DNA from: Fusobacterium varium
GTDB lineage: Bacteria > Fusobacteriota > Fusobacteriia > Fusobacteriales > Fusobacteriaceae
Direction: 5' to 3'
Assembly (NCBI GenBank): GCA_900637705.1
Contig: LR134390.1
Coordinates: forward strand, 2,790,001 to 2,854,000
DNA: 64,000 bases
The notes beneath the pieces are model-generated. The model had not been told where the DNA came from. It ran no database searches and saw nothing but the letters and a program-made list of their open reading frames with translations. Made by a program: the position numbers and the translations under genes. Within the stretch, counting starts at the first letter, position 1. Every line of letters begins with the position of its first letter. Below, in pieces: positions 33,161-49,352 of the stretch.

Positions 33161-33200
33161 AAAAAAACGGCAAATGACTTTATTGTCATGCCGTTTTTTC
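33161..33200. terminator. strong bidirectional hairpin with no obvious gene
   Basis: AAAAAACGGCA/TGCCGTTTTTT with a further TGAC/GTCA extension has T-runs on both strands. It lies upstream of the udp promoter, so no annotated gene ends here; it insulates the operon from the cassette beyond. Confidence 0.75.
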
Positions 33201-33282: not shown

Positions 33283-33584
33283 CAAAAATATTTTTTTTAT
33301 TTAAAAATATTTTTAATTTCTATATCTAAGTAGATTATTTTCTTAAAAAATTAATAAACTTTATATATTTAAAGAATTAAATTGTTTTAAAAAATATATA
33401 TAAACTAAATTAAACGTGTTGAAGATAGTTAATCACATTATAAATTATAAAGTACAATTTTTTATGTATATAAAATTCTAAAAAAGTGTTACAATTTAAA
33501 TTGTATAATTCAATAAACTTCTTAAGAAACATAAAATTAAAAACAGTAACATATATAGCTGTTGTTTAGGAGGTATAAATTTAA
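33283..33584. other. AT-rich leader region of the four-gene cassette
   Basis: No coding frame is seen. It contains a perfect 16-bp palindrome TACAATTTAAATTGTA (33490-33505) overlapping a TATAAT -10-like box (33504-33509). It ends with AGGAGG 12 bases before the first cassette ATG. No good -35 box was found. Confidence 0.5.
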
Positions 33585-34469
33585 ATGATTAGAATTGGCT
33601 TTAACAAAAAGCAAAAAGAGCAAGAAATAATAAAATATCTCAACAGTAATTGTATAAATAAAATTTATTGCTTCTTTTTCAAAAAATTTTACGTTAATTA
33701 TGATATTGGAACTGAAAATATTGAATATATTGAATATTCTAATATTGAAAAATATAAATATTTTTATAGATTACTAAGTGAAATAAATGAAAATTCCTTA
33801 ATTATAATAGATGAATGTATGAGAACAAGTAACAGAAGCAAATTGATATATAATTGTGCCCATCATTACTTAAATCAAACTCCTCATAGAATAATTTTTG
33901 AATATTTTCCAATAATAGAAAATTATGAGGACTTCATGATTCTTTTAAATTTTGAGAATAAAGGGAAATATAAAGGGAAAGGATTTGATTACAACTTTTT
34001 AAAAAATGAAGATATAAAAATGATTAAAAGAACTATTCCTATGAAAGTACATACAATAAGGACAACAAGATTTATGAGAGAAAGATATGAAAGAGAGAAA
34101 AATCTATTATTTAAACTTCTTGGAAATCAAGACCCTGATATCCTTCCAAGAAATCTGCATCTGTTAACAGGAGATTTTAAAAAAGAACATATAAAAGAAA
34201 AAATTTCTGTTGCAAGAAATAATAGATTTAGACTTAAAAATGTTGTTTCCTATAATAATATAAATCTAATATCTGAAGAACCAGAAGTGCTTGTTGTTGA
34301 TTTTCATTATAGAAGATTAAATTTCAACGATTTTTTAAAAACCATGAAAAATATAAAAGAATTTGAATTTCTTTCAACGAGTTTACCAGTCGACAAATTT
34401 TATATAAAAAGTTATATAGAATGGAAGGATAAGTGTGAAGCGATCTATGATAAAGCAAATGTATTCTAA
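33585..34469 (+). CDS. uncharacterised protein, first gene of the DUF3440/ParB/MTase cassette
   Basis: 294 residues, basic, Lys/Tyr/Asn-rich, no membrane segment or signal peptide. The only motif I see is SLIIIDECMRTSNRSK (about residue 67), which looks like a Walker B strand with DE followed by an arginine-rich helix, as in P-loop ATPases. No Walker A GKT/S is evident, so ATPase activity is uncertain. AGGAGGTATAAATTTAA precedes the ATG. It overlaps the next gene's GTG start by 35 bases, so the four genes are probably translated as a unit. I do not recognise the family. Confidence 0.75.
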   Translation: MIRIGFNKKQKEQEIIKYLNSNCINKIYCFFFKKFYVNYDIGTENIEYIEYSNIEKYKYFYRLLSEINENSLIIIDECMRTSNRSKLIYNCAHHYLNQTPHRIIFEYFPIIENYEDFMILLNFENKGKYKGKGFDYNFLKNEDIKMIKRTIPMKVHTIRTTRFMRERYEREKNLLFKLLGNQDPDILPRNLHLLTGDFKKEHIKEKISVARNNRFRLKNVVSYNNINLISEEPEVLVVDFHYRRLNFNDFLKTMKNIKEFEFLSTSLPVDKFYIKSYIEWKDKCEAIYDKANVF

Positions 34470-35574
34470 TAAAAATGTTCTTGAGGTATCAAAAGAAAGA
34501 ATAAGTTTCCTTTTTGATAACTTTAAAAATATATGTGTTTCTATTTCTGGTGGAAAAGATAGCACAGTTTTGGCATATCTCACTTTAAAAGAAGCTGTTA
34601 AAAGAAATAGAAAAGTAGGATTATTTTTTTTAGATGAAGAAGTTGTCTATAGCAGTACAGTAAAACAAATAAAATATTTAATGAATCTTTTTCCCCAAAA
34701 CACTATAAACTACTGGCTTCAAGTGGAATTTAATCTTACTAATGCTACAAGTATCACAGAAGGGCAGCTTAAGTGCTGGGAAAAAAATAAATCTCATTTA
34801 TGGATGCGACCTAAAGAAAAAAATTCTATTCAAAATAAACCATGGGATATAGAAACTGAAACTGTAAGAGATAAAAATAAAGGCTTTGGGTTTTATGATG
34901 CAATAGATAATTTCCAAAAACTAAAGAGTGATACCATTTTTTTAGTTGGTTTAAGAGCAACGGAAAGCCCAAATCGCTGGGGAGCTGTTGTAAAAAATCC
35001 TGTAGATGTAAATGGAACTCTTATTTATTGGGGAACAAAATTAAAATATGGAAGTTTTTCTTTTTATCCTATATATGATTGGAATTTTCATGATATATGG
35101 AAATATATTTACGATGAAAAATTAAAATATTCTAAAATATATGACTATCAATATAAAAAAGGGACAGGACTAAGAGAAATAAGAGTGTCCTCATTAATAC
35201 ATGAAAAAAGTTTTAAAGCATTGGTTGATCTTCCTGAATTTGAACCTAAAACTTATGATAAGCTTCTCAAAAGAATAGCTGGAATAAGTATTGGAAATCT
35301 TTATGGAAAAGACAGCAAAATGTTAAGATGTACAAAACTTCCTAAAAATTATGATTCTTGGATAGAATATAGAAATTTTTTATTAGAAACATATCCCATT
35401 GAAAATAAAAAATGGATATTTCAAAAAAGATTTCAAAAACATTTGGAAAATGAGTATGTTGCAAGACAGCAATGTAAACAGCTTATACTAAATGATTATG
35501 AAAATAATTTACCAGTAGATAATAGAAAAGACCCAAGATTAGAAAAACTAAAAAAATGGAGAGCAATACTATGA
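34435..35574 (+). CDS. IbrA-like PP-loop ATPase (DUF3440, PAPS-reductase family)
   Basis: 379 residues. The PP-loop SGGKDS is at residues 38-43, followed by FFLDEEVVYSSTV. Further on are GLRATESPNRWG and a DWNFHDIWKYI segment like PAPS reductase and IbrA proteins. A DUF3440-type C-terminal region follows. These enzymes adenylate or bind sulfur-carrying substrates, and relatives such as DndC act in DNA sulfur modification. A metabolic PAPS reductase role is unlikely without sulfate genes. The start is GTG 34435 (GGAAGGATAA before it) or ATG 34447/34459. It overlaps both neighbours. Confidence 0.85.
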   Translation: MKRSMIKQMYSNKNVLEVSKERISFLFDNFKNICVSISGGKDSTVLAYLTLKEAVKRNRKVGLFFLDEEVVYSSTVKQIKYLMNLFPQNTINYWLQVEFNLTNATSITEGQLKCWEKNKSHLWMRPKEKNSIQNKPWDIETETVRDKNKGFGFYDAIDNFQKLKSDTIFLVGLRATESPNRWGAVVKNPVDVNGTLIYWGTKLKYGSFSFYPIYDWNFHDIWKYIYDEKLKYSKIYDYQYKKGTGLREIRVSSLIHEKSFKALVDLPEFEPKTYDKLLKRIAGISIGNLYGKDSKMLRCTKLPKNYDSWIEYRNFLLETYPIENKKWIFQKRFQKHLENEYVARQQCKQLILNDYENNLPVDNRKDPRLEKLKKWRAIL

Positions 35575-36107
35575 GATATATAAAAACAAAAAAAGGAAAT
35601 ATAGCACTTCCTGTTATGAATCCTATTATAGTTCCTATATACAAGGTAGAACCAAACAAATACAATCCAAACAAGGTTGCAATTAATAATATGGAATTAT
35701 TAGAAAGATCTATCTTAGATAATGGATTTTGTTTTGCTGTAGTTACTATATATGATCAAAATAGGGATAAATATATAATAGTTGATGGTTTTCATCGATA
35801 TGAAATTTTTAAAAAATATTTCAAAGCTAAAGAAATTCCAATAATTGTATTAGAGCATGAGATAGAAAAAAGAATGGCTGCAACAGTACAATTTAACAGA
35901 GCTAGAGGAGTTCATCAAGTTGAACTTATGGGGGAATTAGTCAGAGAATTATGTGAAAAAGGTCTTGAAGATGAGAAAATAGCCCAATCTCTAGGAATGG
36001 AAGAAGAAGAGGTTTTTAGACTAAAACAGATAACAGGTATTGCAGAAATTTTTAAAAATAAAGCTTATTCAAAAAGCTGGGAAATGCTGGAGGTTGATGA
36101 TGAGTGA
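35571..36107 (+). CDS. IbrB-like ParB/Srx-fold protein
   Basis: 178 residues. The ParB N-terminal fold is visible: VEPNKYNPN, IIVDGFHRYEIF (DGFHR at 72-76) and the nucleotide-box-like FNRARGVH (109-113). It is followed by a helix-turn-helix-like LEDEKIAQSLGMEEEEVFRLKQ. IbrB relatives are always paired with IbrA-type PP-loop proteins. ParB-fold enzymes bind CTP/ATP or act as nucleases. The ATG overlaps the upstream stop (ATGA) and GGAGAG sits 7 bases before it, so it is coupled. Confidence 0.85.
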   Translation: MRYIKTKKGNIALPVMNPIIVPIYKVEPNKYNPNKVAINNMELLERSILDNGFCFAVVTIYDQNRDKYIIVDGFHRYEIFKKYFKAKEIPIIVLEHEIEKRMAATVQFNRARGVHQVELMGELVRELCEKGLEDEKIAQSLGMEEEEVFRLKQITGIAEIFKNKAYSKSWEMLEVDDE

Positions 36108-36735
36108 AAAATGGGAATATGGAGGTTCTTATCTAAACTATCCAATAAAACCTGCTGTTCCATATATTATAGATAAAAATATCATTATGGCATCTGATCT
36201 TATTGATGAACTGCCAGATTTTATGAAAAAAGCAGATATATTATTTATCGATCCTCCTTGGAATTTAAGAAATCTCAATACTTTTTATATGAAAGCCAGA
36301 TTAATGCCTAAGGTAGAGAGTTATGAAGAATTTTATGAAATACTTTTTAAAAGAATAAGTGAGATAAAGGCAAAACTCTGTTTTTTGGAAATTGGTAAAG
36401 AATATCTTGCTGATTTTATAATAGAAATGAAAAAACTCTATAAATATGTAACATTTTATAATAGTACTTACTATAATAATAGTAAAAATTTATGTTATAT
36501 AGTTCAAGGAAGTGAAAAAAGACTAAATCTAAAATTAGATGGTATGGATGAAGAAAAAATAATAGAATTTATTTGTAAAAACCTCCAATACGAATGTATA
36601 GGTGACCTATGTATGGGAAGGGGTCTTGTTGGTTTTAATTCTTACCTTAATAATAAAAATTTTGTAGGAATTGAGTTAAATCATAAAAGACTATCTGTCC
36701 TTCTGGAAAATATTTCCAAAAGAAAATATAGCTAA
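36100..36735 (+). CDS. DNA amino-methyltransferase (DPPW, beta-class order)
   Basis: 211 residues. Catalytic motif IV is DPPW at 51-54 (LFIDPPWNLR). The AdoMet-binding motif I comes later (IGDLCMGRGLVGF, then FVGIELNHKRL). IV before I is the beta-class arrangement of N6-adenine or N4-cytosine methyltransferases. The protein is short with no clear target-recognition domain, so it may rely on the ParB-fold partner. ATG 36100 has GGAGG six bases upstream; ATG 36097 is possible. It overlaps the ParB-like gene by 8 bases. No restriction gene is adjacent. Confidence 0.85.
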   Translation: MSEKWEYGGSYLNYPIKPAVPYIIDKNIIMASDLIDELPDFMKKADILFIDPPWNLRNLNTFYMKARLMPKVESYEEFYEILFKRISEIKAKLCFLEIGKEYLADFIIEMKKLYKYVTFYNSTYYNNSKNLCYIVQGSEKRLNLKLDGMDEEKIIEFICKNLQYECIGDLCMGRGLVGFNSYLNNKNFVGIELNHKRLSVLLENISKRKYS

Positions 36736-36748
36736 TTAGCCAAAATTA

Positions 36749-36783
36749 AAAGCTGTAATTTCAAGTTAAAATTACAGCTTTTT
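36749..36783 (+). terminator. terminator of the cassette
   Basis: The 13-bp stem AAAGCTGTAATTT/AAATTACAGCTTT leads into TTTT, 14 bases after the methyltransferase stop. Confidence 0.88.
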
Positions 36784-36979: not shown

Positions 36980-37342
36980 TTACTTTATTGCTTCAAATAT
37001 ACTGATTATTTCTTCCTGCTTCCTCATATCTGCCTCAAGTTCCTTTTTAGCCTCACCATATTTTTTTGCTAATTCCTGATATTGTCCTTTATAAAACTTA
37101 TTATCTTTTACACTTAATATTCTTTTTTCTTTCTCTGATATCTCTGCATACATTTTTCTTTGAGCTTCTAATGTTTTTTCTGCCTCTTCTGCCTCAGCTT
37201 TTCTTTGATTGTACATTGCTCTTTCCTCTGCTTCTAATTGTTGAAGATTAAGTTCAAGCTGTTCCAATGTAGACATTACATCTGTTGCTGAATATGATAC
37301 TGCTGATACTGCCAGAAGACACCCTATTATTATTTTTTTCAT
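36980..37342 (-). CDS. fadA: FadA-family adhesin
   Basis: 120 residues. A signal peptide (MKKIIIGCLLAVSAVSYSA) is followed by an all-helical, Glu/Lys/Gln-rich mature part. It matches FadA closely in layout and in the C-terminal piece FYKGQYQELAKKYGEAKK, where FadA has FYKSQYQDLASKYEDALKK. FadA forms antiparallel helical hairpins that assemble into surface filaments and bind host cadherins. Orthology to FadA itself versus a FadA-like paralogue is unclear. Ribosome binding site AAAGGGGG precedes the ATG. Confidence 0.85.
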   Translation of the reverse strand: MKKIIIGCLLAVSAVSYSATDVMSTLEQLELNLQQLEAEERAMYNQRKAEAEEAEKTLEAQRKMYAEISEKEKRILSVKDNKFYKGQYQELAKKYGEAKKELEADMRKQEEIISIFEAIK

Positions 37343-37365
37343 CTTATCCCCCTTTTAGTTTTTCT

Positions 37366-37797
37366 TTATTTATTTTCCTCTTCTTTTTTCGCTGATTCTT
37401 CTACTTTTATATACTCTTTTAATACATCGTTTATCTTGTACTTCTCAACTATTTCATTTATTACCTTTACTTTTTCTTCTCCAAGTTTTTGATTAAATAG
37501 CGCCTGTTGAAGTTGTGGATATACTTCCACTGTATTTTTATCCTTTAATAGTTCTGCATTGTTTTTGTATACTTCTAATAATTCATAGTCATGTATTTGA
37601 ACTGTTTTTTGAGCTATTGAATTAAGATAAAATTCTATCTCCATATTAAGTTTCATTTCTTCAAGATACTTTTTTTCCTCTTCTGTATATTCTTTTTTTC
37701 CCATTTCTTCAAGGATAGCTTTTCTCACTAAAAGTTGTGCAATTGCATCTTTATTTTCCCCTAAAGTTTCTAATTCCTTTTTTGTTAATTTTATCAT
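37366..37797 (-). CDS. helical protein of the adhesin locus, unknown
   Basis: 143 residues, highly charged, predicted helical with coiled-coil tendency (KELETLGENKDAIAQLLVRKAI, KKYLEEMKLNMEIEFYLNS). No signal peptide is visible with the chosen start, ATG 37797, which has GGAGG six bases upstream. The pattern slightly resembles the N-terminal region of SurA/parvulin-type chaperones, which would suit an adhesin assembly factor, but this is weak. It lies between the small GCRF gene and the FadA-like gene, 23 bases before the latter. Confidence 0.65.
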   Translation of the reverse strand: MIKLTKKELETLGENKDAIAQLLVRKAILEEMGKKEYTEEEKKYLEEMKLNMEIEFYLNSIAQKTVQIHDYELLEVYKNNAELLKDKNTVEVYPQLQQALFNQKLGEEKVKVINEIVEKYKINDVLKEYIKVEESAKKEEENK

Positions 37798-38020
37798 TCT
37801 TTTCCTCCAAAATAGTATTTTTTCCCTTTTTTTCAATGTTATTTCCATATTTTTTAAAAAGATTTAAAATTATCTTACCATTTGATCCATATTCTTCTTT
37901 TAAATCCTTTAAGCTTTCTTGGATTAGTAAGTATTCCTTCTCAGTGAACCGACACCCAAGAGTGCAGTAATTTTTTACTCCACTTCCTAAAGGGCGGCCT
38001 CTTTTTCTTTTTTCTGTCAT
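37751..38020 (-). CDS. small basic GCRF protein, possible regulator
   Basis: 89 residues as read. It begins MTEKRKRGRPLGSG, an AT-hook-like GRP motif, then the CRFTEKEYLLIQESLKDL segment shared with the gene at 36790-36969, followed by ILNLFKKYG, reminiscent of ribbon-helix-helix DNA binders. AAAGGAGGTCAAAAT precedes the ATG. The last 16 codons overlap the next gene. One extra base in the T6 or T7 run at 37818-37833 would instead end it at 37794 (75 residues) with an ATGA overlap, so the C-terminus is doubtful. Confidence 0.65.
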   Translation of the reverse strand: MTEKRKRGRPLGSGVKNYCTLGCRFTEKEYLLIQESLKDLKEEYGSNGKIILNLFKKYGNNIEKKGKNTILEEKNDKINKKGIRNFRGK

Positions 38021-38045
38021 ATTTTGACCTCCTTTAGTAATATTA

Positions 38046-38069
38046 GACTGCCTTTATTCAAAGGCAGTC
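38046..38069 (-). terminator. hairpin after the giant autotransporter
   Basis: GACTGCCTTT/AAAGGCAGTC forms a perfect 10-bp stem 19 bases after the stop. The following T-tract is weak on the minus strand, so readthrough into the small genes is possible. Confidence 0.65.
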
Positions 38070-38087
38070 CAATACTTTAATTATTGA

Positions 38088-41000
38088 TTAGAATTTATAA
38101 TTAAATCTTACACCATATTTAATTGATGAATCGTTTTTATGTGATTCATCTGCTGCTTCCACTTCAAATGTTACTCCCATATGGTTGGCTTTTTCCACTG
38201 TAAGTCCAATTTTTCCTGACAGCTTTCCTTCTCTCTCTTCTGGAGTGATTAAACTATAATATCCTTCTCTTCCATTTTTAAGCTTTGCTTTATTTCCATC
38301 ATAATTATCTCCGAATTCGTATGCATATTTTACATCTGCTGTTACTTTTACAGATATATCATTTCCTGCATAGATTCTTTGTGATGCTTTTACTCCTGCT
38401 GCTGCCTGTGCGCTTAAGTAATCATTATCTTTAATTTGTACTTCAAGTCCACCTTTGCTTCCAGCATGTTCTTTAAAGTCATCTACTTTTCCATATTCTA
38501 AATCTAAATCAGCATATACATCTAACTGTCTAGATAAATCTGTATAGATAACTTTTGTAAGTCTGTTGTCAAATGCTACAGAGTAAGTATTATACTCTCC
38601 TTTGTTTTCATAAGTTTTATTCAATTCAAGTTTTCTCTTAGCAATATGTCTGTTGTATCCTAGTTCTATTCTTGATAACCATGATACTTTATGCTCATCA
38701 CTTAAATTTTTAACTCTATGAGCTCCTACTCTCAATGAATATACATCTTCTTTTGATCCACCATCATCAAAGTCAAATTTAGATCCAGCAAATCCCACTG
38801 TATATCCATATTTGCTTCCATATTCTGTTCCCTCTTTTTCTTTCATATATAGAAGTCCCATTACCTTGTAATCATAGTCGTCTATTCCTAAAGTAGAATC
38901 CTTATAGTTTCCATCAGTATAGATAACACTGTATTTACTGCTGTCTTTAGTCAGGTTGTATGATGATTCAAGTTCATAGAAAGAATTATCAAATGCCTGA
39001 TTAATATCCTGCATTCTTCCTTGAATAGTTGCATAAATATCTCCTCTAGTTTCAGCTAATTTCTTTGAAGCTTCTCTTTCAAATTCATCTCCATGGAAAT
39101 TCCCTAGATATTTATTCAATTCTTTTAATATTTGAGCATCTCTTCCTTGTCCATTAGTATCATCAATCAGATTATCCAATCCTTTATATAGCGCATCAAA
39201 TTGTTCACCTAAAGTCAATCCTGCATAATCTTTTACTACTAATACTAGTTTTCCATCATCTGTTATTTTTCCTACAAACATAGGTGATGTTATAGGAGTA
39301 AGTTTAGTTCCTGTAATTGTTCCCATTGCTGTATTTACAAATCCTTCTATTTCATATGTACGACCATTTCCTGTAGCTGCAAAGTTTGGTAATATATTTA
39401 CTTCTCCACTTACACTATGTGCATTAAATAGAGGTGTTCCAGTTGTTACATCTACATATGCTCCATCTACTACTATATTTCCTGCTGTAGAAAGAGTTCC
39501 TCCAATAGAAGTATAGTTCCCATTAATTTTAATAGTTCCATCTGGTTTTATCTCTATAGCTCCTACCTGAGCAGTAGCTAATCCACCTGATCCTACTGCC
39601 GCTCCACCATTTACTATTATATGTCCAGCATTTACTGTACTTCCTATTCCTTCTATTCCCACTCCGTTATTTACTACAATAGTTCCATTATTTTCAAATG
39701 TTGTTCCTACTCCTACAAGCATTCCAGCACCTTGATTTACTGTAATAATTCCATTATTAACAATCTTAGCTCCTGCTCCATGTGATGCCATACCTACTGT
39801 TACTGCTCCACATGATGCAAGTGTTCCTCCTAAATTAATATTAGCTCCTACAGCATTTACAGCTACTGCTCCATCTCTTACAAGAATTCCTACTCCACCA
39901 TTATCTACATTGATAGTTCCTGTATTTGTAAAGCTTGTTCCAGCTCCTTCTCCATATACTCCTACTGAATGATCATGATTTACAGTTATTGTTCCAGAAC
40001 TTGTTGCTATTGTTCCACCAGAAATATACATACCTACTGAGTTAAGATGATTTTGAGTATTATTATGATCACCATTTACATTTGTACTTCCTACAGTTAT
40101 ATTTCCTGCATTATTTACTGTATTAGCTCCATTAGAGAATATTCCTACTGATGATGTTCCTAGTGTCATATCAGCATTGTTGTTGATTATCGCTGATTGT
40201 CCTGCTGTTTGTTTTAAATAGATTCCATATCCACTGTTTCCTACTGACCAGTTTCCTACTGATGTAGTTATAGTTCCTGTTCCATCTACCTTATAGATTC
40301 CTACTGAAGCTGTATCATTTATTCCAGTTCCCTTATCATCTATTGTTATAGCTCCTGTATATGTCACATTTCCATTACCTTCACTTGCAATACCAACACT
40401 TGTATTTGCACCAATTCTCATGTTTCCTGTTACTACTGAATTCATTCCTTTGGCGTATACTCCTATTGCATTACCTGTTCCTACTGTAATGTTTGACATG
40501 TTAGCAGTTATTGTTCCTCCAGTTCCTTCTCCATAGATTCCAACTCCTTCTGTTCCAACAGCCATTGTTTCTGTTCCAGTTCCTTGAGTAATTACACTTC
40601 CAGGTGCCATTCCTTTTCCAAAAACACCTATACTGTAGTTTCCTGCTGAAAGATTTCCATTTCCTGTGTATGACCCTCCATTTATTGAAACTCCTATTGA
40701 TGATGTTGTTTTATTTACACATGTTGAAGAATCTGCAACTATTACGTTACCATTTACAGTAATTATACTGTTTTCTCCATATACACCAATATTATTATCT
40801 CCTCCACTTATATTTACTGTTCCTGCTACTGTAAGGTTAGAGTTTCCTTTTGCCATTACTCCTACTTGATTGGCTGTTCCAGAACCACCAATAGAAATTC
40901 CTCCTGCTGTAGTCCCTGTTGAATTATTTAATACCATACCAATAGTATAGCTTCCTGTTTGTGTTATTACAGGTGCAGTTCCTATAGAAGATACTCCATC

Positions 41001-44000
41001 ATAGTAAACTCCTATAGAGTAATATTCAGAGGATGTTCCTGTCTGTACATCTATTGTTGTTGTTCCAAATGCTGGTGCTGCATTCTTTACATATGCTCCT
41101 ATTCCACCATTTTGAACTGTTATTGTTGAAGCTCCCATAGCATTGATGGTTCCACCATCTGCTACTATTCCTATTTGATTGTTTGCTGTAATATTTCCAC
41201 TGAAATTTAATGTAGCATCTTTAGAATACATATATATTCCTTGTGTACCAACTGTAATATTAGCAGTATTTGGAACTGTTACTGTTGTTCCTGCTCCTTG
41301 AGCATATACTCCTATACCACCTTTTCCAGTAGTAATTGCTGTTGTTCCTGCTAAAGTTACACTAGAACCAGCATTTGCTACTACTCCTATTGCACTCTTA
41401 GAAGTACTTGACTCTCCAACTATAATAGTTCCATCTATTGTAGAAGTTGTTCCTGAAGTTGCCATTACTCCTACACTTTCATTTCCTAAGTTAACAGTTC
41501 CTGCATTTATATTTGATGTTACACCTTCAAGAACTACCCCTGTATTTCTTGAACCTGTTGAAGTTATATTATTTGCAGTAAGTCCACTTGTTGCTCCTTT
41601 AATATATACTCCTATTCCATCAGTTCCTGTCATATTCATATTATTATTTTGTACTGATGTCATAACTCCATTGTGGCTTGAGTATATTCCTATTCCTCTA
41701 TCTCCTACATTAATAGTTCCTGTGTTTACTATATCTGCTACATCTGTATAAATTCCTATTGATGGTGTGTTTGTACTTGATATTCCAGATATATTGATTG
41801 TTCCTGTATTATTTATTGTTACTGGAAATCCAGGATTTGTTGCTCCTTTTACTGCTGCCAGTCCTATTCCTCCTGATACAGCTGTAATAGTTCCTCCATT
41901 ATTTGTTATACTTTGAGGTCCTCCCATTGTTCCATCATATGTTCCAAGCATTCCAGTAGCACCTTCTCCTATATTCAGATTTCCTGTAGAATTAAGGCTT
42001 CCATTTGAAGTAGCTGCAAGTGATCCTGAGCCTGTTACAGTTATGTTGTTTCCAAGATTAAGTGTTCCTCCATTATTGTATACTCCTATTCCTCCACCAG
42101 CTAAAAAATTAAATGTTAAGCTTCCTGCTGTTCCAAGGTTGGCAGTTCCCCCAGCTACATATACTCCTGTTCCTCCATTGATATTCATAGTTGATGTTCC
42201 TGTAGCTAAAGTAGTTCCTGTAGGAACATATATTCCTATTCCACCTTCAGTAGTTACATTTCCATTATGGTTAAGAGTCATTCCAGCTCCACCAAGGTAT
42301 ACTCCTACTCCATTTTTAGCGTTTACACTCACATTATTCATAGTATATGTGCCAGTTATTCCAGCATCAAACAATATTCCTACTGATGTTTTTGTACTAT
42401 TTGTACCTGTTGTTATATTAGCTCCATTAAATGATACACTATTATCAAGAACATATACTCCAACCGAATCTTGTCCTGTTGTTATATTTCCTGATATTAC
42501 AGAGTTAGTTTTTGCTGCAACTCCTACTGCTTCTGTTCCTACAACATTTACTGCAAAATCTATCTTAGCATTTTCTCCAAATACTCCAACTCCCCCTGAA
42601 GCTATATTCAAAGTTCCTGCTGTTATTTTATTAGTATCTGTATTTTTTAGATAGATTCCAACTGCATTTGAAGTAATAGTTCCTCCAGTTCCATCAAAAC
42701 TATTTCCTGAACCATCTATATACACTCCAGTTCCTGTTCCAGTAGCAGTTATACTTCCTGTATTTCTTCCAGAACTTGCACCTGCTCCTGCTATATACAT
42801 TCCAAGATTATTACCAGCAGTGATTACATTTGTATTTTCTACAACAGCTGTTTTTCCTGCTTTTGCTTCAGATGCCATTCCTACCATTGAACCTGCTGTT
42901 CCATTTAATGTGATAGTTCCAGAATTAATACCTTTTCCTTCTTCTGTATATATTCCAATTCCATCACTTGTATCATTTAAGGTAATAGTTCCATTTGAAG
43001 TCAGCTGTGAACCTCCTCCAACATATGAAGCTATACTATCACTTTGCCCTACTGCTGATGTAATATTGGAATTATTTACTAAAGTTATTCCATCTGCTGC
43101 ATATATTCCTATACTTTCACTTCCAATAAGAGAAATAACTGAGTTATTTGTTACAGTTCCTGATGCAGTTCCTTTACTGTAATAAACCCCTATATTTTTA
43201 GTTCCAGCAACTGTATTATTTACAGTTATTGTTCCTCCTGTTGCAGAAGCTCCATCTGTAAGATACATTCCTGTTCCTCTTCCAGAATTAGTATTAAGAA
43301 CAAGTCCTCCTGCTCCTATAGTTACAGCTCCTCCACTTCCATATACTCCTACTGCTCCTGCTGTAGCTGTTCCTGTAGCAGCTACTGTTCCTGATATAGT
43401 TGATGTTCCATCAATAAATATACCAGTTGTTCTCTCTCCAGTAGCAGTTACATCAACATTTAAAGTATTATTTCCCTTAGAATATATACCTACTGCTTCA
43501 TTTGTAACATTAAGCTTCCCTGTTCCATTAAATGTACTTCCAGTACTAACATTTTCAAGATAAATCCCAACAGTTTTATTTCCAGGTGTTGTTGGTGTTC
43601 CCACTCCATCTATTGTTACAGTTTTACCTGAGTCTATTCCTACTGTTGCATCTTTCCCATATACAAAGATATTTTTATTTTCATTTGTACTTGTAAGAGT
43701 CAGGTTATCTTTAAAGTTTACAGATGAATTTTCAGCGAAAACTCCTACACTTGATTTTCCACCAAACACTATTTTATTTCCAGTATTAAGTTCAGTTACA
43801 GCACCTGCTTTAACATATATTCCTGTAGTTCCATCTACATTAAGATTGATTGTACCTTGATTTATTGCTTTAGCCCCTGATCCTTCTGCATACATTCCTA
43901 TTTGTGAAGCATCATTTACATTAATTATTCCTGTTGTAGTATCATTAAGGATATTAGCTGTTTTAGTATACATTCCAACAGCTCCTGTCTTCCCTGTTCC

Positions 44001-47000
44001 TAAAGTTATAGTTCCTGTATTAGTTCCTGTATTAGTACTACTTCCTTTAATATATATTCCTACTCCAGAAGTTCCTATACTTAATGCTCCTGATGATGAA
44101 ACATTCATATCTTCTGTATATATAGCAGTTCCTTTATCTAAAGCTAAAGCATTTACAGCTACACCAATATTTTTAGTTTCTCCACCAGTTCCTTTATAGT
44201 AGATAGCAGTTTTTCCAAGTGTTCCAGTATTATTTGATGTTACTGTTACAGTAGTTGCAGTAAGGTCTGATGTTCCATCAAGCATTACTCCAACACCATC
44301 TGCTCCAAGATCAAGAGTACCAAGACTTGTAACCTCAGTTCCATTTTTAGCATAAATAGCTACTCCACCATCTCCTACAGATACTTTTCCAAGATTTGAA
44401 ATAGTCGCTTTATCCCCATAAATACCAATAGCAGCATTAGAGCCACTAGAATGTCCAACTTTTATTTCTCCAGTTGCTGTATTTGTTACAAGAACATCCC
44501 CTTTTGCTCCAGTTGAATTGTTATTGTATGCATAAATACCAACACTTCCTGTTCCATCAAGAGTTATTTTATTATTGTTAGTAATATCAGCTTTTCCCTG
44601 CCCTACTGCTAATGAACCAAATTCATTAACTATTGGCACTTTAGAAGAATCTTCTCTATATGCCATTCCTAGAATACCTATAGATTGCTCTCCTCCTACT
44701 TCAATACTTCCATCATTTGATACTGTACTTCCATTTACAGCATAAATACCTACTGCTTGTGCATTCGCAGCATTACTCTCTTTTTCAACTTTTATCGAGC
44801 TAGTTCCATCTACTGTTACAACTCCATAATTTATAAAAGCTCCAATAGCTCCTGTTCCTACACCATCTCTATCAGCAACAATAGTTGAATTAACTAAGTT
44901 TATTCCTGCTTCTGTATTAGAAGTAGCCAACTTACTTGAGTTCATTTCTAATCCAACCACTTGATTGTTAAATTTAGATGCCTGAGTATTATCGAGAATT
45001 GCAGAAATAGTACTTCCTGTAGCAGTCGCTACAAGTCTTTGTCCTAAAAATCTATTATAATAGAAATTCCCATCTTCTTGTGCCTGAGTTTCTCCTAATG
45101 CACCTACTCCAGTTTTATCCAAATTTCCAATATTAATTGTTCCTCCATCAACTGCTGCTATTTTATATTTGTCAATACCACCACCTGCAACTATAAGATC
45201 TGAAAGATTTGCTCCTCCCAGAGCTGTTCCAAGAGCTCCAGTTATACTGGCTTCCAATCCAGTTGTACTCAATCCAGTTGCATTTTTTAGATTAAAGACA
45301 ACAACATCATTAGATTCTACATGAATTCTTGAGTTTGCATCTAATGTTACAGGTGGTGTTCCTGCCAACATATCTACATCAAATGCTGTTGCCTTTCCTT
45401 TAAGAATCATTTTAGAATTACTTAAATTTATTTTTCCTACTCCATCTGAATAAACAGCATATCCTGAACCATCAAATTCTACTGTCCCTCCTGATAAATC
45501 TATATTAGAATTTGTTCCTATAGAGGCTGCTGCTGTTGATCCATTAGTTACTTTTATATAATTGTTTTTAGCATTAACAACTCCACCATTTGTTGCCATA
45601 ACTCCAAATCCAACATATCTGTCTGCATCACTTAATTTTGATCCTGTTATAGATATATTAGCACTTCCTGGAGTTGCTGTTCTATTGATTGTAATAACAG
45701 TATTAGCTCCAGAAGCAAAAGCTGCTCCTGTATCTTTTCCATTTATAGTTGTAGGGTTAGCTCCTACTTTTGAAACTACATTTAATTCCTTTGCTGTAAT
45801 TTGGGCTCCACTTTCTCCATAAACAACCACTGAATCTTCAGTATTTGCAGCTGTTATTTTATTTACTGTTACAGTTTCTGCTATTCCAGAAGAAGCACCT
45901 TTTACATAGACTGCCATATTTCCTATTCCATTAGTTAATGAAATATCTCCTGTAGAAGTTATACTTCCTTTACCATTAATTAAAACACCAATATTTCCAC
46001 TTCCACCATTTAGAGAAATCTCTCCTCCACCTATATTAAGTGCTACATCAGCATTAGGATATACTCCAACATTATTTTCAGTTTTATCATATATTCTTAT
46101 CTGATGACTTGTTAGATTTATGGCTGCATTAGCAATTATTCCAAAAGAACCTTCTATATTTGTATTTGTTCCACCACTTGGATTGATATTATAATCTGTT
46201 AAATTTGTTCCATTAGTAGTTCCAGAAGCTGTAGAAGTTGTGAAATTCTGATTTCCTTTACCAGTTTCTCCAATATCAACAGCAAAATTTCCAATTGTAG
46301 AACCAGATGTAGCAGCTCCATATAAACCTATACTTTTATCTCCAAATAGCTTCAATGGTTTATAGCTTCCTGCAGTTACAGTATTAGTTGCACTATTGAA
46401 TGCAAAATTATCAGTAGCAAAATATAAATCATTATCAGAACCTGTTTTTAGGAAAATTCCAGCAGAATTCTCTCCATACATTTCTAAAGTTCCTCTATTT
46501 ACTATACTCAATGGTCTTCCTGTGCCACTTGAACCAGAAAGGAAAATAGAAGCTGTCTGAGTGTATGTTTTTATACTTCCAGTAGGTCCATTATACATTA
46601 TATGATGAACCCCAGTTCCATCAAGGGACATTACAAAAGCTGAAGTATATTTTTGATAATAATTAGTTCCATTAAAATATGGTTGAAAAATTACCTCACC
46701 TGTATTCATAGCTATAGCTTTTCTTCCTGCTGAACTATGGTCATAATGGTTAGTAAGAGAAGTGTTTCCCCCTTCAATAACTATTTTTCCACTATTTATC
46801 CATGTATATCTAGCTGAAGCAGCTGTTGTATTTTTTGTTGTTCCATAAGTCCAGTTAATATTATTTCCAGCATCATCATAAGCAGCTAAAATGTCAGCTT
46901 TATTACTTAGACCATTAGTTCCAGTATCTAATCCTGCTCTTTGACTTGTTGGATCAGCAGCCCCATGAATATCCATATGTACAAATTCTCCTAGGTTAGA

Positions 47001-48262
47001 AGCTGCATTTTCCATTCCTCTAGTATAAAGAAATGTTGCATTACTTAACATTGTCGATTGAGTTCCTGACCCAACTAATTTTTGAAACCCTAGTTGAGAT
47101 CCACTAGAAGCTGTAGAAGTTCTAGCTAAACTATTCCATGTCAATCCTGCTCCAACATTTGCATGAAGATCACTTTTAGCATCATTTCCACCTTGAGCCC
47201 AAACATTAGCTCCACTATATCCAGTATATTCATATGTCCATGTATTAGCAGTATTTCTAACTAAATTAAAATTTCCACCTTTAATTGCAACCATTTCTAT
47301 AACACCATTACTTAAAGTTCTAGTATCAATATGATTATCTGTTCCATTTCCACTTGAAGCAACATTTGAAGCAAATGATGGAATAGTTGGTGGCACGATA
47401 ACTGGTATAGTTGGTGCTGTTGGTGCTGTTACTGTAGTTGGTTCAAATCCTGTTGGCGTTGCTGGAGCACTCACATTTATATTCTTATCCCCTGGTGTTG
47501 TTGGTGTTGTTATTACTGGTGCTGTTACTGTTATCTTATCAACAGCTGCTGGAGTTGTAATTGATACACTTACTCCACTTGGTGATGATGGTATTGAAAC
47601 TACTGGTGCTGTAATTGTTGGCATTGTTGGCATTGTTGGACTTACCGTTCCTGGTAATGCTCCTAAATTTACAGTAGGTGTTGATACATTCACTGACACA
47701 CTTGGATTAATTATTGGAAGCTCTGGTTCAATAGGTTTGATATTAGCTCCAACTTCAATTGTTTCTCTAAATACTTCAGTGTCAACAGCTACTCCATTTC
47801 CAGCCATTATTTTATCTTTTCCAACATTTCCTGTAGCTCTAAGCAGACTTCTTCCACTCTTTGTTCCATAATGCTCATTTATTGCATCTATTGTTTCTTT
47901 AAATTCTTTATCAGTTCTGTCTTTCATTTTTCCATTATCTAAATATTGATAACTTAAAAATACCTGTGTACTGTTGAATAAAGGTTTAGAATAAAAATCT
48001 CCCTTTCTTACAAGTTCCACAAAATCTGAATTGTATTCTTTTATCATTCTTTCATTTTCTGCTATTTTTCTTTTATTTCCTCGCGCTCTGTTTGTATCTT
48101 AGTTAAAAGATCTCCTTTAGTTTCCTGTATCTCCTCTGCTGTTATCCCTGCACCTAAAGATATCCCTCCTGTTATCATGAAGGCTATCAAAAGCGAAAGA
48201 GAATAACTGACTTTTCTCTTCAAAAATCTCTTTAGAGATTTTTCAATGTCACCTTTTTTCAT
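38088..48262 (-). pseudogene. giant type Va autotransporter adhesin (RadD-sized), frame broken near the N-terminus
   Basis: The main frame (38088-48047) lacks a signal. The short frame 48062-48262 supplies it: MKKGDIEKSLKRFLKRKV, then a hydrophobic core ending near SLGAG. One extra base in the T5 run at 48065-48069 joins them into 3,391 residues. A proline/threonine linker (about 200-290) precedes a passenger of hundreds of short Gly/Asn/Thr beta-helix-like repeats with recurring GVGIY/GIYA. The last 300 or so residues form the autotransporter barrel ending GVRFNYKF. Size and N-terminal style match fusobacterial RadD/Fap2-type adhesins. AAGGGGGAAAGATTT precedes the ATG. Confidence 0.93.
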
Positions 48263-48275
48263 AAATCTTTCCCCC

Positions 48276-48860
48276 TTAGTTTCCTGCTCTAACTTTTTGT
48301 TCCATCTTATCTAATCTATTCAAGTATTCATTAAGTTTTTCATTTTCTAATAATAATAGTTCAATCTCATTATTATTAGATTTGAATTCATCATATACTT
48401 CATCATATTTTTGACTTAGAAATACTCTGTTTTCATCAGATTCCATTCCTAAAACTTCCTCAAGCTTCATGATTTCTTCCTCTTCCATTTTCAGAAAAGC
48501 CATTCTTTCCTTACCTATTTCAAAAGCTGCTCCTGCTGCTGCAATTCTAGCTTCTGGAGTACTTTCGCTTCTGAATACCTTTTCCTCAAGAGATTCATTT
48601 AAATCTCTCCTGATATCTTCAATTATTTTCTTTCCTTTTTTTTCCTCTGCCTTTTCAGCAGCAATTCTTGCTTTTTCTTCAGCTTCTTTAGCTTTTTCAG
48701 CATCTTCAATGGCTTTTTGCTTTGCTTTTTCTTCAGCCTGTATCTCTTTTCTTATCTGTTCAAGAACTTTTTTCCCTTCTTTTTCACTTATTTCCTGTGA
48801 ATAAAGAGTTGTTGCTCCCAAACAAGATATCAAAAGAAATATCCCCAAAATTTTTTTCAT
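48276..48860 (-). CDS. exported coiled-coil protein, FadA-like
   Basis: 194 residues. A signal peptide (MKKILGIFLLISCLGATTLYS) is followed by long Glu/Lys/Ala heptad regions (about 30-95 and 125-190). It ends LDKMEQKVRAGN, like the RAGN end of FadA. It lies 13 bases upstream of the giant autotransporter, a place where fusobacterial adhesin operons carry small helper proteins. It may be a co-adhesin or a periplasmic chaperone. ATG 48860 has AAGGAGGAAAGAAAT upstream; a frame open to 48890 would precede the signal with ten residues. Confidence 0.75.
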   Translation of the reverse strand: MKKILGIFLLISCLGATTLYSQEISEKEGKKVLEQIRKEIQAEEKAKQKAIEDAEKAKEAEEKARIAAEKAEEKKGKKIIEDIRRDLNESLEEKVFRSESTPEARIAAAGAAFEIGKERMAFLKMEEEEIMKLEEVLGMESDENRVFLSQKYDEVYDEFKSNNNEIELLLLENEKLNEYLNRLDKMEQKVRAGN

Positions 48861-49352
48861 ATTTCTTTCCTCCTTAAGAATAAACTTCATAATTTTTTAA
48901 ATGTCATGATTTTTCAATAATCAATAAAAATCCCCCCTTTTTTATAAAAAATGACAAACAAATATTTTTAAAATTGTGATTTATAGAATATATTTATTTG
49001 TAATTTTGTTAATTTTATAAGTTTACAATCTTATTTAAAGTAAGTAAATTATAGCATAATATTTTTTTGCATACAAATAAAAACATATTATAAATAAATT
49101 ATTTTTATTGTATATATTTATTTTTAGATTTATAGATATTAAACAATATTTTTATTTTTTATAAAAAATGTATATATTTTTTGAATGTGTAATAAAAATA
49201 AAAAATAAATTATAGTATTTTTTGAAAAATAAAGACAATGAAGAAAAATGTCAAAAAAAGGAAAATGAAAATATTCCACTTTAAAAAATTTCTAGAATAT
49301 AAAATAAAGAAGACTTTTATGATAAGAAAAAGATATTGGCAATTTATAAAAA
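48861..49352. other. long AT-rich leader of the adhesin operon
   Basis: About 180 bases lie between the promoter at 49048 and the first start codon. It contains GGGGGG (48932-48937) followed by a seven-codon frame TTG...TGA at 48904-48924 (MIIEKS), a possible leader peptide. Nothing else was recognised. Confidence 0.45.
49048..49076 (-). promoter_or_regulatory. promoter of the adhesin operon
   Basis: On the minus strand TTGTAT (49071-49076), 17 bases, TATAAT (49048-49053). Confidence 0.6.

Follow-up and report, generated by a model that had tools for sequence, protein, structure and literature searches.

A four-gene IbrA/IbrB-like cassette in the chromosome of Fusobacterium varium and its possible roles in DNA modification and adhesin regulation

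The locus

The window analysed here, a stretch of 64,000 nucleotides of Fusobacterium varium (G000:C1:2790001-2854000, within a 3.30-Mb single-contig genome), contains a cassette of four genes. They encode a protein of SNF2 fold, whose gene is labelled G1, an IbrA-like PP-loop protein, an IbrB-like protein of the ParB/Srx superfamily, and a small methyltransferase. All four genes are on the plus strand between 33585 and 36735, and each overlaps the next, just as an earlier note on the same DNA had described. The features of the locus are as follows.

33361..33517, plus strand: conserved leader element of about 157 bp, recurring upstream of TpsB-TpsA operons in the same genomes
33490..33505, no strand assigned: 16-nt perfect palindrome TACAATTTAAATTGTA within the leader, imperfect in relatives
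33585..34469, plus strand: G1, minimal two-lobe SNF2-fold protein of 294 amino acids, without Walker A, predicted pseudo-ATPase
34447..35574, plus strand: IbrA-like PP-loop ATP pyrophosphatase (PF01507 and DUF3440), ATG start preferred to GTG at 34435
35571..36107, plus strand: IbrB-like member of the ParB/Srx superfamily, carrying a DGFHR motif and closer to SerK/SbnI than to canonical ParB
36100..36735, plus strand: putative small N6/N4-type amino-methyltransferase, with a DPPW motif preceding the D-x-CMG-x-G motif for S-adenosylmethionine
36748..36782, no strand assigned: intrinsic terminator, a hairpin with a stem of 14-16 bp and a T tract on both strands

The earlier note had the genes coupled through GTG, ATGA and ATG overlaps. 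The ATGA overlap at the start of the ParB-like gene stands, while GTG 34435 is probably not the start of the PP-loop gene. Judging from sequence, ATG 34447 is the likelier start, because a TAA stop lies between the GTG and the ATG in one relative genome (labelled G002); phage homologues of the protein also mostly begin at the residue corresponding to this ATG. The strong terminator that the note placed at the far end is indeed there, in a form oriented for both strands, and its hairpin is kept in 4/4 species though its sequence varies. As to the palindromes reported in the leader, TACAATTTAAATTGTA is real, but inverted repeats are numerous in this AT-rich DNA, and it is the leader itself that its conservation and recurrence make significant. 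Another perfect inverted repeat of 11 nt (AAAAAACGGCA/TGCCGTTTTTT), terminator-like, lies at 33162-33199, in the stretch that separates the nucleoside operon from the leader.

Co-occurrence of the four genes in phages and genomes

How strictly do these genes go together? Viral contigs, scanned with the PP-loop protein as query, gave 22 loci, and all 22 have the four genes in identical order. A scan of genome contigs gave 14 further loci, mostly from Firmicutes, and some of these are prophages, since endolysin or terminase genes are present. A separate scan with G1 as query gave 43 loci, on contigs partly overlapping those of the earlier scans. After merging, 48 distinct G1 sequences or loci were available, 46 of them with enough flank to judge the ParB-like and methyltransferase genes. 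The IbrA-like PP-loop gene adjoins G1 in 48/48, the IbrB-like and methyltransferase genes are found in 46/46, and the set resides mostly on phages or prophages. The earlier note had made its proposal depend on the four genes occurring together elsewhere, and their co-occurrence is strict. An active SNF2 helicase gene is added in 33/48 loci and a second small PP-loop gene in 10/48, both together in none; neither is present in 5/48, and four of these five are Fusobacterium chromosomal copies. When the core proteins are compared for their pairwise distances, the four are correlated with one another at r 0.75-0.87, and with SNF2 only at 0.41-0.47, a correlation which is supporting rather than decisive because distances share phylogeny. 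From the occurrence pattern together with these correlations, the cassette is an evolutionary unit, to which the SNF2 helicase or the second PP-loop gene is joined as an exchangeable accessory.

The second PP-loop gene stands in place of the SNF2 helicase beside the core in L010, L049, L055, L056, L109, L133 and L136, and the two never appear together in the 43 loci having one or the other. Elsewhere in the genome of the window, SNF2 genes are generic only (best 29% identity), a second PP-loop gene was not found, and the PP-loop protein as query returned this copy only. Several other arrangements were seen. Arthrobacter phage Wheelbite (L069) has a ParB-PAPS-ParB-methyltransferase block immediately before its terminase genes, and in a Peptoniphilus locus some 4 kb separate the cassette from a QueC-like gene (L053:14563-15747). 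On an Actinarchaeum halophilum plasmid (L068), genes for a second PP-loop protein, a DPPW methyltransferase, a ParB-like protein, a 261-amino-acid unknown protein and an IbrA-like protein are clustered, possibly an archaeal version of the cassette; the haloarchaeal 261-amino-acid neighbor was rejected as a G1 homologue (probability 1% in profile comparison). Further plasmid copies are listed for Shigella and Klebsiella.

G1 as a SNF2-fold pseudo-ATPase

The first protein, which the earlier note had left unrecognised, turns out by structure prediction to be a mini-SNF2 pseudo-ATPase. Its sequence gave only a SNF2 match below threshold and no match among solved structures and phage records; PF00176 is matched by 6/22 family members at E<=0.1, with the window member below the gathering score. 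When its profile was compared with that of the neighboring SNF2 family, E was 3e-4 across 165 columns, but the probability was only 40%. Only fold search succeeded: the AlphaFold model (predicted local distance difference test score 86.8) is superimposed on SNF2 ATPase cores at Z 19.2 and a root-mean-square deviation of 3.3 over 287/294 residues, with a best Foldseek E of 5e-8. None of the 48 G1 proteins has Walker A, which all 37 of the SNF2 proteins possess. Motif VI is likewise found in 0/48, and motif II is degenerate, with D changed to N in 25/48 and no conserved DExx, while many other residues are invariant. Because no homologue has Walker A, the protein as modelled is a two-lobe pseudo-ATPase of SNF2 fold, and it may bind DNA.

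The PP-loop, IbrB-like and methyltransferase proteins

The PP-loop protein matches PF01507 at 54.6 bits and DUF3440 at 39.7 bits, both above cut-offs, and with the adjoining ParB-like gene it forms a pair of IbrA/IbrB type (phrog_2302, E 7e-81; phrog_2159, E 2e-54). The SGGKD motif for ATP is present in 82/84 homologues and is retained as SGGKDS in the window protein. Genes of this type in phages are annotated as PAPS reductase and listed as host-metabolism genes (e.g. PMC11318856). Is the cassette then a metabolic cysH group for sulfur assimilation? The annotation names, PF01507 and the similarity of fold to CysH speak for it. However, the catalytic motif ECGxH is found in 0/84 homologues, the CysH model TIGR02057 scores 19.4 against a cut-off of 254.2, and the gene is strictly linked to those for a pseudo-SNF2 protein, a ParB-fold protein and an amino-methyltransferase, a link suggesting that this branch at least belongs with DNA machinery and not with sulfur metabolism. 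We regard the metabolic explanation as almost certainly wrong.

The earlier note had also suggested a sulfur link by way of DndC, and a sulfur-based modification of DNA related to phosphorothioation (Dnd/Ssp) would agree with the PP-loop homology, with a weak DndC match in PADLOC (28 bits), and with C347 (numbered from the GTG), which is invariant inside the cassette subfamily. Against this, the 84 homologues have no universal cysteine and CxxC appears in only four of them, the DndC model gives 22.5 bits against a cut-off of 290.4, and DndD, DndE and a cysteine desulfurase were not seen in the flanks. Sulfur transfer by a single cysteine is therefore disfavoured on sequence, the sulfur link of the note is not supported, and phosphorothioation is very improbable. 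The nearest folds, FAD synthase and PAPS reductase, both at Z about 15, leave the nucleophile unsettled.

The IbrB-like proteins have DGxHR in 77/78 and the GERR motif of ParB for cytidine triphosphate binding in 0/78. The window member scores 28.5 with the ParB model TIGR00180 (cut-off 58.45), below what is asked of a canonical ParB, and the model of the serine kinase SerK weakly matches 16/23 members. The methyltransferases have DPPW in 51/56 and D-x-CMG-x-G in 47/56; PF01555 is matched by 15/22 members, the window member not at E<=0.01, and there is weak similarity to adenine methyltransferases. By its motifs the enzyme is probably of the N6/N4 amino type, and DNA would be its substrate.

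Two active-looking enzymes beside a SNF2-fold protein suggest action on DNA, and to this extent the DNA or nucleotide modification proposed in the earlier note is supported. Such a set, with its DNA-type methyltransferase kept in the chromosome, might be a defence system which labels the cell's own DNA or attacks DNA from outside. PADLOC gives its weak DndC-like match here too, but its matches are weak and to single proteins only, the relatives of the cassette are chiefly phage-encoded, and no nuclease or restriction partner was seen in or beside it. As the note had stated, no sulfate-assimilation (CysH), restriction or Dnd gene is seen in the flanks. Defence thus appears improbable to us.

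A domesticated chromosomal copy

The cassette lies at the same place in four Fusobacterium species, between nucleoside-catabolism genes on one side and a FadA-like/autotransporter operon on the other, and no phage structural, lysis or integrase gene was seen beside it in the flanks viewed in these species. The set is mobile and phage-derived, as the earlier note had supposed, but the prophage setting does not apply to this copy, which is domesticated and syntenic in the four species. Four other genomes of the genus have this nucleoside gene without the cassette next to it; no clean empty site was seen, because gene order also differs there. Among the four species, each of the four genes has a ratio of nonsynonymous to synonymous substitution rates (dN/dS) within 0.035-0.104, with dS about 0.5-1.0, which indicates purifying selection and rules out a decaying remnant.

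Directly downstream of the cassette, at 36980-48890, are convergent FadA-like genes, a 3319-amino-acid autotransporter and more FadA-like genes. A plasmid copy in Fv113-g1 (L043), in which G1 is cut down to its last 53 residues, also has FadA-like and autotransporter paralogues nearby.

The leader and the adhesin operons

The leader at 33361-33517 is 79-87% identical among the four species, against 55-68% at 4-fold sites. The relatives have diverged copies at four other places, and in every case the copy precedes a TpsB (ShlB/FhaC) gene, after which comes a TpsA haemagglutinin gene. A model built from eight copies, the four cassette leaders and these four, finds two held-out copies in the window's own genome (E 1.7e-14 and 9.9e-13), about 100 nt upstream of TpsB, at about 55 bits; random sequence of matched composition, 3.2 Mb in all, reached no more than 11.9. 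There are thus six further copies in total, every one just upstream of a TpsB gene, and the leader is present at 6/10 TpsB loci of the cassette genomes. It had no match at four TpsB loci in cassette genomes and at one in a cassette-free genome, and a genome scan, which weak copies could escape, did not find it in seven cassette-free genomes of the genus. The sharing of the leader with two-partner-secretion adhesin operons, missed by the earlier note, suggests regulation no less than defence.

As an RNA structure the leader was rejected, with RNAalifold covariation in 2/38 pairs only and no Rfam match there. At one leader copy (L194, G000:C1:3067000-3079000) the TpsB and TpsA frames are each split (216+308 and 527+2460 amino acids), and a pseudogene, a phase-variable frame and a sequencing error are the alternatives for this.

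Could the cassette then be a transcription co-activator of surface adhesins, of IbrAB type, which binds the leader or RNA polymerase without any DNA chemistry and switches on the two-partner-secretion haemagglutinins together with its own operon? In E. coli, IbrAB reportedly activates adhesin (eib) genes and raises Eib expression (PMC7649339, PMC6008420, citing Sandt 2002). The distribution of the leader agrees with such a role, and so does the position of both the window copy and the plasmid copy beside FadA-like and autotransporter genes. On an E. coli plasmid (NZ_CP062205.1, L067) the IbrA-IbrB pair likewise lies 1.6 kb downstream of an autotransporter gene. But such adjacency is weak by itself, as these genomes have many autotransporters (32-44, PMC5720691), and the association of leader and cassette is confounded by co-inheritance because one clade only is concerned. 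Moreover, the catalytic motifs conserved in the PP-loop protein and the methyltransferase imply chemistry, and the module is retained in phages, where no adhesin genes were noticed beside it. We consider pure co-activation rather unlikely, though a rival to be taken seriously.

A proposal for cassette function

The explanation we favour, and hold about as readily as we doubt it, is that the cassette is a phage-derived four-protein module acting on DNA, most likely modifying bases, and recruited into an adhesin regulon. Base modification is favoured because of the phage origin, the obligate four-part set, the dead SNF2 fold, the ATP-using PP-loop enzyme and the amino-methyltransferase. G1, as a dead SNF2-fold clamp suggested by its model and lost motifs, would hold duplex DNA. 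The IbrA-like enzyme, with its ATP site recognised by motif, would adenylate, at the cost of ATP, a carbonyl or comparable group of a base, and a non-sulfur nucleophile would then substitute the adenylated group. The IbrB-like DGxHR protein may be a partner using nucleoside triphosphates, by analogy with SerK/SbnI or DpdB, and the DPPW methyltransferase may complete the product by methylating an exocyclic amine. The phage versions have, in addition, an active SNF2 translocase or else a second PP-loop enzyme, and what they make would protect the genome of the phage. The F. varium clade has the core of four genes fixed in its chromosome and no accessory gene. This accessory-free core probably serves adhesin regulation because its leader is common to haemagglutinin operons, and regulatory use in Fusobacterium is favoured by the conserved adhesin-type leader together with the reported activation of eib by E. 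coli IbrAB. The cassette might be a co-regulated target, or might act by marking leader DNA. The base-modification and regulatory readings are mutually compatible. A bolder version, in which the product of the module is a modified base without sulfur, not described before, and the module is in Fusobacterium an epigenetic switch that marks or reads the leader, controlling the haemagglutinin operons and itself, has in our opinion a slim chance.

Several points weigh against the favoured explanation. No demonstration of DNA modification by these proteins was found in the literature, and the sole phenotype reported for IbrAB is altered gene expression (PMC7649339, PMC6008420). IbrA-IbrB pairs are widespread without G1 or the methyltransferase, so their basic activity can do without methylation. 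RNA, nucleotides or other proteins might be the targets instead of DNA. A single capture of a promoter from a two-partner-secretion operon, at insertion, could explain the leader; its later conservation says that it matters in either case.

Significance and comparison with known systems

With the domesticated copies, the function of IbrA/IbrB, a question of long standing, can be addressed by deletion in a chromosome and outside any prophage. The common leader ties the cassette to particular, named surface-adhesin operons of a gut bacterium. No description of the four-gene set was found in the literature, with many journals outside the search, and its novelty is provisional because of this limited coverage. 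PP-loop, ParB-like and SNF2 genes were reportedly proposed for lysidine-like base modification in phages by Iyer et al. in 2013.

Among the nearest known systems are the IbrA/IbrB pair of E. coli (co-activators of eib) and the IbrAB pairs of phages. They also place a PF01507 and DUF3440 PP-loop protein beside a small ParB-like protein, are carried on phages or plasmids, and share the reported link to adhesin expression; identity, however, is about 28%, and the E. coli plasmid pair is without G1 and the methyltransferase. Dnd/Ssp operons for DNA modification also combine a PP-loop enzyme with a ParB-superfamily partner, and DndH is reported to have an inactive SNF2-type domain (PMC10853773). 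Not like them, the cassette is without desulfurase, DndD/DndE and cysteine signature, and it has a methyltransferase and a pseudo-SNF2 protein. In the Dpd system for 7-deazaguanine, the ParB-like ATPase DpdB helps insert the modified base into DNA (PMC12839542), whereas the cassette has no TGT or DUF328 protein and has a PP-loop protein and an amino-methyltransferase instead. Finally, G1 shares its two-lobe fold with prokaryotic and phage SNF2 helicases, an active gene of which is often just upstream in phages, but it is only about 290 amino acids long, without Walker A, conserved DExx or motif VI.

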